64,000 nucleotides of DNA from Chlorobiota bacterium (GTDB lineage Bacteria > Bacteroidota > Chlorobiia > Chlorobiales > Chlorobiaceae), in NCBI GenBank assembly GCA_016868665.1, contig VGGK01000007.1:1-64000 (forward strand), written 5' to 3'. The notes beneath the pieces were generated by a model, which was not told the origin of the DNA, made no database searches, and was given only the letters and a program-made list of their open reading frames with translations. Positions 40,442 to 45,386 of the stretch are shown piece after piece (position 1 is the stretch's first letter; each line of letters begins with the position of its first letter). The position numbers and the translations under genes are program-made.

Positions 40442-41155
40442 TCAGGCTATTGCCGCGATTTTCAGGAAATTCGTCATCAGAGAGATCCCGGTTCGGGTAT
40501 ACTCCTCCCTGATAGCCTCGAACTGTTCGCAGAGGATATCGCTTCCGGTGTTCTGAAGGTCGGGATCGAGCCTCGACCACTCCGCAAGCATTTCGGCAGT
40601 AAGTTCAAAATGGCACTGCAGCCCATAAGCGTTGGGCCCGACCCTGACAGCCTGGTTCCTGCAATGCCTGCCGACGCCGAGCAGCCGCATCGATCCGGTT
40701 ATGTCAACGGTTTCCCCGTGCAGCTGGAACACACGGAACGACTCCGGCATATTCCCGAACAACGGATCATTTATTCCTTCGCCTGTCAGTTCCATGCGGT
40801 ACGGGCTGTCTTCATGGTCGAAAAAGCCGATCTCCCTTACAGGGCTTGCCGTAACCAGGCCGCCGGCGGCTTTGACCATCACCTGCAACCCGAGGCATAT
40901 GCCGAGGCAGGGCATTCCTGCCTGCAGGGCTCGCCCGGCCATGTCGAGCTCCATTTGCATGGCAGGAGTGTTGTCCTCGGCGCTTTGCGGCCCTCCGAGG
41001 ATGACCAGAGCGTCGCAGGCAAGAGGATCGGGAATCGTATCGCCTCGCGAAATATCGCACACCGTATATGCGACGCAGTGCCTTTCAAGAACAGGTTCCA
41101 GCAGTCCCGGCCCTTCTCTGGCAATGTTCTTGACGATCAGGATGCGTTTACCCAT
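40442..41155 (-). CDS. Class I glutamine amidotransferase (GMP synthase-like)
   Basis: 237-residue stand-alone glutaminase-fold protein. The nucleophile is C87 in MPCLGICLGLQ; the histidine and glutamate of the triad fit AYGLQCHFELT. Proteins of this YfeJ/GuaA-like class transfer ammonia to unknown acceptors. The start ATG lies 8 bp inside the end of the cqsS-like kinase gene, so it is translationally coupled to a signal receptor. No synthetase domain is attached. Confidence 0.85.
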   Translation of the reverse strand: MGKRILIVKNIAREGPGLLEPVLERHCVAYTVCDISRGDTIPDPLACDALVILGGPQSAEDNTPAMQMELDMAGRALQAGMPCLGICLGLQVMVKAAGGLVTASPVREIGFFDHEDSPYRMELTGEGINDPLFGNMPESFRVFQLHGETVDITGSMRLLGVGRHCRNQAVRVGPNAYGLQCHFELTAEMLAEWSRLDPDLQNTGSDILCEQFEAIREEYTRTGISLMTNFLKIAAIA

Positions 41156-43691
41156 CGATCACGTTGTTTTCGAGCATAGTTGTTATAGCACCAGAGGTAT
41201 CGTTGAATGTCTGCCACAGTACGGCAAGCCACCGGTCGTTGTCCGGCCATCTGCCTTTTCTGGTGAATTCGTTAATATAACGGGTCAGCATATACAGGCG
41301 GTTCGCTCCGCAGCTTCCCGAAGAGCCTTTCAGCGTATGGATGAGCATATCAACGCTCTTTATATCGTCTGAAGGTACTGCAGAGCCGAGTCTCTCCAGA
41401 ATTTCCTTCGTGTCGTCAATATAGAGCCGCAGTATGCTCGTGACCAGCTCGTTGCCGCCTGTTTCCATCAGGCTGCTGATGATCGACCGGTCAAGGATTT
41501 TTTCTCCGGCGATAGTTTCCCAGAAGTTTTTCTCTTCAGGCTCCCTCCGTACTCCGTTCTGCCTGAGGCTGTCCGGCTCGATTCTGCAGGTAAGCCAGGC
41601 GGTTATGACCGAAATCAGTTCATCCCTGAATACCGGTTTACCGATATGATGGTTCATCCCTGCCGCCTTCGATCTGGCGATGTTTTCGGTATCGGTATTT
41701 CCGGTGATCGCGATGATCGGGATGGTATCGAACTTTCTGAATCGCCTGAACCGCTCACCCTTACGTATTTCGCGTGCTGCCTCCAGGCCGTTCATGACCG
41801 GCATTTCCATATCCATAATAATGAGATCGTAGTCCTGCAGCTCGAGGCGTTCCAGAGCGATTTCGCCGTTTTCGGCCTGTCCGGTAAGGCAGCCGTAGTG
41901 CTCGAGAATCATACTCATGAACTTCCGGCTCGTTTCATTGTCGTCCACCAGCAGGATTCTGCTGCCGCAGATGGCATCCTCCAGTTCTGACGATATCGTC
42001 GACGTTTCCGAGAAGAAATACCGCTCGAAAACACCGACGATATCGGGTCTTCTGACCGGCTTCGAGAGAATTTCGTTCATCCCGCACTTCGCAGCGCGCA
42101 TACGTGCTTCGGACTGGGGAAGTGCCGTTATGCCGATGACCGGGGTCTGCAGGTAATGCATGGCGAGCGAGGGCTCGATATTTTTTGCAGTTCTCAGCCG
42201 GGTTATTGCGCAATCGCCATTGAGTTCTGGCATTTCAAAGTCCATGAATATAAGGTCATAGCTACGGAGTGCAGCCATTTCCAGTGCCTGTTTGCCGTTC
42301 TCCGCCTCGTCGAAAGGACATTGCCATTCCGAAATATACTTCGCAAGCAGCAGACGGTTGCTCACCTGATCGTCAGCTATCAGGATCCTTTTGCTTTTCA
42401 TGATCTCTTTTTTCAGATCGATCACCTTTTTCGAATGATAGGCGGGAAGCCTGATGGTGAACTCCGTCCAGCGGCCTTCTTCCGAGTCGCAGCTTATGTC
42501 GCCGCCAAAAGCCTGCAGCACTCTTTTGCAGAAAGAGAGTCCCAGTCCGTTTCCCCCGCTTTTCCCATAGGTGTAGAACCGGTCGAAAATCCTTGCCCTT
42601 TTCGTTGCCGGTATTCCCGGACCGTAATCCCTGAATCTGATGAAGTTGCAGGTACTTCCGCGTTCCGTCGTTATTTCGATTCTGAAGTCCGGACGGCTCT
42701 TGTAATAGAGCGCATTTCTCATCAGGTTGAACAAAACATAGATGAACAGGTCCTTGTCGCCGAAAAAGTCGAAGTTGTCCGAGGATTTATCGGCAACAAG
42801 CATCTTGTCCTCAACGGAGCCGTAACCGTAACTGTTTATGGCCGTGTGAACAATGGTTTTAGCCGAATGCCTTCTGAAATTGTTGCTATCAACCGATCCA
42901 TCCTGAAGGCTGGCCAGAATCGAATCGATGATTTTATTCCCCCTTCGTATCGTTGACGTACTTTCCTCGATGACATCGTGGATGTTGATCAGGCCGGAAA
43001 AGCTCAGATCGACTCTGCCATCCGAATCGCTGCTGTGTGGCTTGTTGGGCAGAATAGCCTGCAGCGAGCTCATGGCATGGGTTATTGAGCTGAGCGGATT
43101 TCTCATCTCATGGGCTATGCTGCCGCTGAGGCTCTGCAGAAGCGATACCCTGCTCTGGTGAGCGAGCTGTTTCCTGTGGTTGGCGATAATGCCGCCGGAT
43201 ACGGAGAAAAGGAAAATCGGGATGTATTCGGGAGTGAAGTATGCGTAAGATACCGAGCCATCAAGAAACAGTACCGTGGCATAGGCAGCAAGAAATCCGG
43301 ACAGGGTCATTATGAAGATGATCCTCCAGTCGAAGATGAACAGCGTCAGCAGAAATGTTCCGGCCATGAACGACATCGCCCACACCAGCGACCATTCGTT
43401 CTTCAGCAACATGAAACTGAAAAAAAAGGGCATGACAATAAAAAGCGAAAGAAAGAAATAGACAGGAAACAGTTTCTGCCACCGTTGCGGCAGTTTCCGG
43501 TAGAACACCCATGGGAGAGATATGAACGCACAGAGAATCCTGAACGACAGGTTCTCATAAGGCTGCGGAAACATATAGGTCCAGATAATGTAATAAACCG
43601 GATACCCGAGAATTCCGAACAGTCCGATAATGCCCAGATTCGGTTCTGCATGTTCGACAATATCTATGGCTTTCTGTTTCAGTTTCTGCAT
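41148..43691 (-). CDS. cqsS: CqsS-like CAI-1 quorum-sensing hybrid histidine kinase
   Basis: 847 residues. A six-span-like membrane sensor (1-175) matches, from memory, Vibrio cholerae CqsS almost collinearly: AEPNLGIIG, YPVYYIIW, FPQPYENLSFR and VWAMSFMA, with W104 and S107 at the same numbers. The HisKA domain has H194 in SIAHEMRNPL. The HATPase shows FNLMRNALYY and NGLGLSFCKR (about 300-415). Receiver 1 (435-560) has D440/D441, D484 and K544. Receiver 2 (577-702) has D583/D584, D627 and K685. A C-terminal HPt domain carries H785 in HTLKGSSGSCG. The system should sense a hydrophobic alpha-hydroxyketone-type signal. It overlaps the amidotransferase gene and is divergent from cqsA. Confidence 0.9.
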   Translation of the reverse strand: MQKLKQKAIDIVEHAEPNLGIIGLFGILGYPVYYIIWTYMFPQPYENLSFRILCAFISLPWVFYRKLPQRWQKLFPVYFFLSLFIVMPFFFSFMLLKNEWSLVWAMSFMAGTFLLTLFIFDWRIIFIMTLSGFLAAYATVLFLDGSVSYAYFTPEYIPIFLFSVSGGIIANHRKQLAHQSRVSLLQSLSGSIAHEMRNPLSSITHAMSSLQAILPNKPHSSDSDGRVDLSFSGLINIHDVIEESTSTIRRGNKIIDSILASLQDGSVDSNNFRRHSAKTIVHTAINSYGYGSVEDKMLVADKSSDNFDFFGDKDLFIYVLFNLMRNALYYKSRPDFRIEITTERGSTCNFIRFRDYGPGIPATKRARIFDRFYTYGKSGGNGLGLSFCKRVLQAFGGDISCDSEEGRWTEFTIRLPAYHSKKVIDLKKEIMKSKRILIADDQVSNRLLLAKYISEWQCPFDEAENGKQALEMAALRSYDLIFMDFEMPELNGDCAITRLRTAKNIEPSLAMHYLQTPVIGITALPQSEARMRAAKCGMNEILSKPVRRPDIVGVFERYFFSETSTISSELEDAICGSRILLVDDNETSRKFMSMILEHYGCLTGQAENGEIALERLELQDYDLIIMDMEMPVMNGLEAAREIRKGERFRRFRKFDTIPIIAITGNTDTENIARSKAAGMNHHIGKPVFRDELISVITAWLTCRIEPDSLRQNGVRREPEEKNFWETIAGEKILDRSIISSLMETGGNELVTSILRLYIDDTKEILERLGSAVPSDDIKSVDMLIHTLKGSSGSCGANRLYMLTRYINEFTRKGRWPDNDRWLAVLWQTFNDTSGAITTMLENNVIDG

Positions 43692-44138: not shown

Positions 44139-45386
44139 ATGATCGGAAAAGATGGAAAAATACCGAATGCAGTCAACAACGGCCCGGAAGACCGCTTCAT
44201 CCTCGCAGTTCCGGATTTTCTTGAAAAGCGGTTGAGTGCATTTGAAAAGGAATCCATTCATCCACGCTTCAACGGCAAACCTCTCGTTCTTGGCAGAAAA
44301 CCCGGTACGGATGCCATTATTCTCCAGAGTAACGATTATCTGAATATTTCGATGCACCCCGATATTTCGCACGCCCAGATCGAAAAACTCGAGCAGACGG
44401 GGCAGGATATGGTGATGTCGGCGGTCTTTATGCATGACGGCAGCGACAAGGCGATTTTCGAAGCCGATATTGCCGGGTTCGCCGGATTCGAGAGCGCAAT
44501 TCTCTGCCAATCCGGATGGGCTGCAAACGTAGGCCTCATGCAGGTTATCGCCGACAGCAGCACCCCGGTCTATATCGATTTTCTGACCCACATGTCCCTC
44601 TGGGAGGGAATAAAATCGGCAGGCGCGCCGTTTCATACCTTTCTGCACAACGATGCGGCACACCTTGAAAAACTCATCCAGCGTCACGGACAGGGCATCA
44701 TTCTCGTGGATTCGCTTTACAGTACGACGGGAGACATAGCGCCGCTGGCCGATATCGTCGATATTGCGAACCGATACAACTGCATTTCCGTAGTCGACGA
44801 GTCGCACTCCCTCGGCACCCATGGTCCCGAGGGACGGGGCCTTGTGGCTGCTCTCGGTCTCACCGACAGGGTGCATTTCATCACCGGAAGTCTCGCAAAA
44901 GCTTTTGCCGGCAGGGCAGGCATCATTTTCTGCTCGAAGCGCTTTGCCCAATGCTATCCCTATATGGCTCATCCTGCAATATTCAGTTCCGCTCTCCTGC
45001 CGCACGAAATCGCCGGACTGGCGGCAACGCTGAAAATTATCAGAAAGGGCGACGACCGGCGAAAGAAACTGCATGAAAACGCCATGTACCTGCGTCAAGG
45101 TCTGTTTGATCTCGGATACGCGATCGTCAGCCAGTCGCAGATCATCTCTCTCGAACCCGGCACCGAGCCTGAAACCGAACTGCTCAGAGACGCACTCGAG
45201 GAACGCAACGTATTCGGATCGGTGTTCTGCGCTCCGGCTACGCCGAAGAACAGAGCGCTCATGCGTTTTTCGCTGCACAGCGGACTTCGCAGAGAGGAAC
45301 TCGACCATGTGCTAAGGGTCTGCGAAGAGATCAGGGACGATACAGGCATGTGGAACTGGAAATCGACAAAACGACGCAAAGTATGA
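44139..45386 (+). CDS. cqsA: CqsA-like CAI-1 autoinducer synthase (PLP-dependent)
   Basis: 415 residues, with AAGGAG 8 nt before the ATG. It is a fold-type I alpha-oxoamine-synthase-like enzyme. From memory it aligns along its length with V. cholerae Cqs[76 protein letters not shown] and [12 protein letters not shown]. The PLP lysine is K254 in [14 protein letters not shown]220 and H223 lie in the DESHS motif. CqsA condenses S-adenosylmethionine with a fatty acyl-CoA to the CAI-1 precursor. A glycine C-acetyltransferase/BioF role is less likely given the CqsA-specific motifs and the adjacent cqsS. Its stop overlaps a GNAT gene. Confidence 0.9.

Follow-up and report, generated by a model that had tools for sequence, protein, structure and literature searches.

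The window, as we call the whole 64,000-nucleotide stretch of DNA analysed here, encodes a CqsS-like hybrid sensor kinase with two intact receiver domains and a built-in HPt domain. We put the probability at about 55% that this kinase would signal through its own HPt to a sigma-54 regulator encoded elsewhere in the genome, and that this regulator would in turn control the Chlorobi-1 small RNAs. The sequence basis of this circuit comprises domain conservation, orthology to Vibrio CqsS, the co-occurrence of regulator, HPt and RNA, six loci in which the regulator adjoins cqsS, and sigma-54 boxes at the starts of the RNAs. That green sulfur bacteria possess a quorum circuit with the LuxO-Qrr logic of Vibrio, built from non-orthologous parts and with the tandem Chlorobi-1 genes as targets, is in our estimate an even bet.

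Domain architecture of the receptor

The kinase gene occupies positions 41148..43691 on the minus strand and encodes 847 amino acids arranged as 6TM-HK-REC1-REC2-HPt; an earlier note on this DNA had placed it at 41148-42420, which covers the C-terminal half only. The N-terminal six-helix membrane sensor (aa 1-185; 43137..43691, minus) is followed by a DHp domain carrying H194 and an ATPase domain (aa 186-420; 42432..43136, minus), for which Pfam returned HATPase_c at 79 bits and a sub-threshold HisKA match. Two Response_reg domains (156 bits summed) correspond to REC1 (aa 436-559; 42015..42386, minus), with intact D440/D441, D484, T522 and K544, and REC2 (aa 578-701; 41589..41960, minus), with intact D583/D584, D627, T663 and K685. 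The HPt domain (aa 735-841; 41169..41489, minus; 47 bits, cut-off 24.6) contributes H785 and K788. H194 is confirmed, H785 and the aspartates and lysines of both receivers stand at exactly the numbers given in the earlier note, and T522 and T663 are found in place too; where that note reads the protein as homologous to CqsS, with both receivers intact and an HPt added, it agrees with Pfam domains, alignment and tree. The AlphaFold model (mean pLDDT 80) likewise contains two (beta-alpha)5 receivers at 436-559 and 578-701 and a C-terminal helical bundle at 735-841 with H785 in mid-helix, the relative arrangement of the domains being unreliable since pTM is 0.49.

Divergent from cqsS lies cqsA (44139..45386, plus strand), which encodes an alpha-hydroxyketone autoinducer synthase according to NF005526 (632 bits, cut-off 428) and the CqsA tree. 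The nearest named CqsA loci belong to Chlorobium and other Chlorobiaceae, which places the genome among the green sulfur bacteria. From its sequence we take the kinase gene to encode the receptor half of a quorum-sensing pair of the CqsA type, with an alpha-hydroxyketone as predicted ligand. The sensor keeps W104, S107 and F162, which are invariant across 36 aligned sensor sequences; W104 and S107 presumably contact the ligand. At position 170, the acyl-tail selectivity site, Cys in V. cholerae admits and Phe in V. harveyi bars a ten-carbon tail (PMC3285556). The window protein carries A170, and a long-tailed ketone is thus its likely ligand. A promoter search of the intergenic region between cqsA and cqsS found no sigma-54 box, and the only Rfam families in the window are tRNAs.

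The gene pair itself has been published for Prosthecochloris and Chlorobium (PMC5289986, PMC10158934); in the parts of these two papers that we consulted, neither the REC-REC-HPt layout nor a regulator or small RNA output of the Chlorobiaceae cqsAS system is described. A published account of a CqsS with two receivers and an HPt was not found in the literature.

Conservation and the role of the two receivers

Other genomes of the Chlorobiaceae yielded 31 cqsA loci, and we compared 25 cqsA-linked CqsS proteins of the Chlorobium type, the window protein included. The acidic pair and the lysine of REC1 are kept in all 25 and the phosphorylatable aspartate in 24, with a glutamate in the remaining protein (L074), so that a loss of the REC1 acidic pocket, which would have spoken against the earlier note, is not seen. 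The HPt histidine, the other residue on which that note hinged, is kept together with K788 in 23/23 proteins that reach this position; the other two stop at contig ends. Mean pairwise identity is 0.64 for REC1, REC2 and the kinase alike and 0.48 for the HPt. Since REC1 is as conserved as REC2 and the kinase, it is not decaying.

The earlier note further described the protein as a self-contained four-step phosphorelay, and this we cannot uphold. The chain supplies only His-Asp-(Asp)-His, and the final phosphate-accepting aspartate must be external; hence the relay is not self-contained. We also rejected serial aspartate-to-aspartate transfer from REC1 to REC2 as a source of added steps: two receivers do not amount to two serial steps, and we know of no precedent for such sequential transfer between receivers. 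Within the relay, intact and conserved REC1 is assigned no role beyond that of a presumed second or regulatory site.

A version of the circuit in which REC1 lies outside the relay altogether, as a phosphate sink or allosteric module, is compatible with our main model and has in our view only slightly less than an even chance. CqsS of Vibrio functions with a decayed REC1, and the receiver proven for V. cholerae has its counterpart, by alignment, in REC2. In ShkA and RcsC, a non-phosphorylated domain occupies the place corresponding to REC1. Against this stands the observation that intact REC1 and HPt are concordant in 69 of 72 family members, a correlation that is not significant after phylogeny because it comprises only three independent pairs.

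Descent of the CqsS family

In a tree of sensor plus kinase, the Chlorobium-type and Vibrionaceae CqsS proteins form sister clades (support 100/99). The earlier note had stated that V. cholerae CqsS possesses one working receiver and uses the separate HPt protein LuxU, which is correct; the receiver is that of D618 (PMC3310172). The degenerate middle domain that the note ascribed to it is borne out by our alignment with Vibrio sequences: in Vibrionaceae CqsS the working receiver sits in the REC2 position, the middle domain lacks the acid pair and there is no HPt. The profile of this middle domain matches that of Chlorobium REC1 in hhalign (probability 92%, E 5e-7), from which we conclude that the two are homologous.

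An intact REC1 with an HPt also occurs in the other deep clade of the family, namely in sensors linked to a methyltransferase and in a protein from a Paraburkholderia plasmid. With intact REC1 in both deep clades, its decay in Vibrio and elsewhere is the simpler reading. The suggestion that the present layout is nearer the ancestral form hence fares differently for its two parts: an intact REC1 is probably ancestral, by parsimony in a tree whose root is not known, and an ancestral HPt is plausible, with independent gain as the alternative. If the circuit proposed below is right, the split of Vibrio CqsS and LuxU would appear as the reduction of a one-chain relay.

Several further loci carry members of this family. 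The Paraburkholderia protein was recovered, together with Vibrio relatives, by full-protein tblastn against plasmids, which otherwise returned mostly unrelated hybrid kinases. It is a CqsS-like REC-REC-HPt sensor (L041:4828-8469, P. caribensis plasmid 2) whose gene immediately follows one resembling ketoacyl synthase III, putatively a third kind of synthase beside a receptor of the CqsS family. A second putative signalling locus of the window's own genome (L034:246-10721, contig C10:45246-55721) encodes two more CqsS-like hybrids, one of 716 aa without HPt and one of 830 aa with REC-REC-HPt (L034:8229-10721), the latter directly preceded by a thioesterase-like/LCM methyltransferase fusion (L034:6818-8227). 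Five genomes share this pairing of methyltransferase and sensor, which is reminiscent of Ralstonia PhcB/PhcS. CqsS-type 6TM sensors are altogether expanded in Chlorobiaceae, with up to seven per genome and most of them away from cqsA. Three loci (L152, L154, L156) from MAGs labelled Rickettsiales, Rickettsia or Alphaproteobacteria contain a cqsA/cqsS pair with a degenerate REC1 and no HPt.

A degenerate REC1 beside cqsA is also found within the Chlorobiaceae. In four genomes of a second genus, whose named relatives are Chlorobaculum (L099, L101, L103, L104), the cqsA-linked sensor combines it with an intact REC2 and lacks an HPt. This sensor falls in the other deep clade as a distant paralogue, and the accompanying CqsA branches from inside the CqsA group of HPt-type loci (100/99). 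The simplest reading of these two positions is that the receptor was exchanged and the synthase retained. In none of the four genomes was a Pfam HPt, the regulator described below or Chlorobi-1 detected. The exchange of the receptor beside a conserved cqsA represents a natural test of replaceable circuit parts.

A sigma-54 regulator as candidate output

The earlier note had left the output regulator open, having seen no response regulator in the window. Indeed, the window's contig encodes no receiver domain besides REC1 and REC2, but the genome-wide search for an orphan response regulator that the note had advised yielded a strong candidate of the NtrC/LuxO type on another contig. The genome contains 29 receiver domains, and among its non-hybrid regulators is one sigma-54 activator of the NtrC class (G000:C1:18214-19662) with the architecture REC-AAA(GAFTGA)-Fis. 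The receiver residues DD/D/T/K and the GSFTGA/GAFTGA motif are kept in 37/37 members of this regulator family. An identity as LuxO orthologue was rejected, since the protein scores 334 bits against the LuxO equivalog with its cut-off of 800.

Homologues of this regulator, 56-58% identical, lie on the same strand 0.75-1.07 kb downstream of cqsS in five loci, and in a sixth the homologue is cut by the contig end. The five form one clade (100/100) apart from the type found in the window's own genome. The gap between cqsS and regulator holds, in six of six cases, one sigma-54 box (1-2 mismatches) that points away from the regulator, behind which follows a conserved small ORF of ~67-91 aa divergent from it (L075, L081, L082, L084, L090, L092); we had considered this conserved block as a small RNA before it proved to be an ORF. 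Sigma-54 activator genes are well known to neighbour a sigma-54 promoter that faces the other way, and the layout thus supports action of the regulator on its own neighbourhood.

The regulator of the window's own genome adjoins csmH, the gene for chlorosome envelope protein H (TIGR03058, 80 bits), and not cqsS. There csmH lies directly upstream of the sigma-54 regulator (L113:2497-4666), and a homologue of this neighbour occurs in 28/30 regulator loci. A link to the light-harvesting antenna is possible from this neighbourhood.

Across 86 Chlorobiaceae genomes, regulator and HPt occur together in 37 and are both missing from 46, with two genomes having the HPt only and one the regulator only (Fisher 9e-21, uncorrected for phylogeny). 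The two former genomes are fragmented and the cqsS contig of the latter ends in REC1; in draft genomes generally, an absent HPt, regulator or RNA may represent an assembly gap. This co-occurrence, like that of the RNA below, ignores kinship in that no species tree underlies it, and its P value therefore overstates the independent evidence.

Chlorobi-1 RNAs behind sigma-54 boxes

A genome-wide search for TGGCACRNNNNTTGCW with one mismatch allowed gave no excess of sites (34 versus 46 for the reversed pattern). The only informative outcome of the sigma-54 box search was a cluster on contig C22, where three near-identical sites, exact or with one mismatch, fall within 0.9 kb. Each directly precedes a copy of Chlorobi-1 (RF01696; 82.7, 79.9 and 76.7 bits, gathering threshold 50), and each of these three copies combines its box with a terminator hairpin. 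An Rfam search of this region for Qrr gave no match and RF01696 instead. We discarded a candidate enhancer palindrome (GTCTCA-N3-TGAGAC) upstream of these RNAs, which is exact at two sites, poorly conserved elsewhere and absent from the window.

Chlorobi-1 is a family without known function since 2010 (PMC2864571). Our search of open-access main texts turned up a single paper mentioning Chlorobi-1 by name, and it found neither a function for the RNA nor a link to sigma-54.

The box is conserved beyond the window's own genome. Upstream DNA could be read for 49 Chlorobi-1 copies, and for 46 of them it contains TGGCAC-N5-TTGC with at most two mismatches, compared to 3.8% of random control windows; 34 of these 46 boxes stand 58-59 nt before the loop core. 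The RNA is predicted to start close to base one of the Rfam model, some 12 nt past the box. Of the three misses, that of G080 has a box with three mismatches; the others belong to G022 and G057, and no further genome with the RNA lacks the regulator. Owing to their different loop, most G011 and G019 copies are outside this count; of their further copies, three of six have a box within two mismatches, and some tandem copies lack a box of their own. Throughout the class the RNA follows the regulator: the two occur together in 34 of the 86 Chlorobiaceae and are both missing from 46, with the RNA alone in two and the regulator alone in four (Fisher 4e-17, uncorrected for phylogeny).

Several sigma-54 activators are present in the window's own genome, four of them strong ones besides the candidate. 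Hence, the RNAs may depend on sigma-54 but be driven by another activator (e.g. a NifA-like one), their match with the set of HPt and regulator then reflecting shared ancestry. We consider this improbable, at odds of roughly one to three. It gains from the missing species tree behind the co-occurrence and from one clade, the C. ferrooxidans group (G024, G028, G042), in which CqsS and regulator are present and Chlorobi-1 is not detectable. It is at variance with the joint absence of regulator and box in the two RNA-bearing genomes named above, and with the all-or-none pattern that HPt and regulator follow in either genus.

The proposed circuit

We favour activation of Chlorobi-1 by the candidate regulator, in the following scheme. 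At low cell density, the kinase would autophosphorylate at H194 and pass the phosphate to D627 of REC2, with D484 of REC1 as a second or regulatory site. The path via D627 is likely, since REC2 takes the position of the V. cholerae D618 receiver that phosphorylates LuxU (PMC3310172). From D627 the phosphate would move to H785 of the protein's own HPt and on to D73 of the orphan sigma-54 regulator, which, once phosphorylated, would switch on sigma-54 promoters, chiefly the ones in front of the three tandem Chlorobi-1 copies on C22. Accumulated signal would inhibit the kinase and the RNAs would be turned off. For this scheme we infer the ligand, every phosphotransfer, the receiver that relays, direct activation of the RNAs by the regulator and the sign of control, the last being taken over from Vibrio.

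The regulator is present without cqsA in 13 genomes, where its input must come from other HPt kinases, and the window's own genome has two further HPts besides that of CqsS. A standalone HPt of 159 aa on its contig C46 (L033:4408-4887) was rejected as LuxU, for it reached 34.9 bits against the 140 of the LuxU equivalog; in most relatives, this domain lies inside a frame of ~1000 aa. That the HPt of CqsS instead feeds another regulator (of OmpR type, NarL type or a single REC), with the sigma-54 regulator serving other HPt kinases, accords with these 13 genomes, the further HPts and the other non-hybrid regulators present, but we judge it unlikely given that seven genomes whose only HPt found is that of the CqsS-type sensor (G033, G038, G060, G065, G071, G072, G075) still have the regulator and that regulator and cqsS adjoin in six loci.

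The circuit from CqsS via its HPt to the sigma-54 regulator and Chlorobi-1 would provide a testable output for the CAI-type system of Chlorobium and a candidate function for an orphan RNA family.

Comparison with known systems

The cqsAS system described for Prosthecochloris and Chlorobium (PMC10158934, PMC5289986) involves the same gene pair in the same bacterial family. Like LqsA/LqsS/LqsR of Legionella, the present system pairs an alpha-hydroxyketone synthase with a 6TM kinase; unlike it, the kinase has an HPt, which LqsS lacks, and the proposed output is a sigma-54 activator, which LqsR, with its unassigned output domain, is not. With hybrid kinases of the ArcB/BvgS type (H1-D1-H2 in one chain) it shares kinase, receiver and HPt in cis and an external response regulator (PMC3310172), and it differs from them by its pair of intact receivers and its sensor of the CqsS type.

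The Vibrionaceae circuit CqsA/CqsS-LuxU-LuxO-Qrr resembles the one proposed here in its adjacent cqsA, 6TM receptor, H194 and REC2, and in a sigma-54 regulator of the NtrC class with several small RNA genes behind sigma-54 promoters. It differs in that here the HPt is present in cis and not as LuxU, REC1 is intact, the regulator scores too low for the LuxO equivalog and Chlorobi-1 is not the Qrr RNA family. If our reading is right, two phyla would share the logic of quorum kinase, HPt, sigma-54 regulator and several small RNAs, although neither the regulator nor the RNA is orthologous between them.
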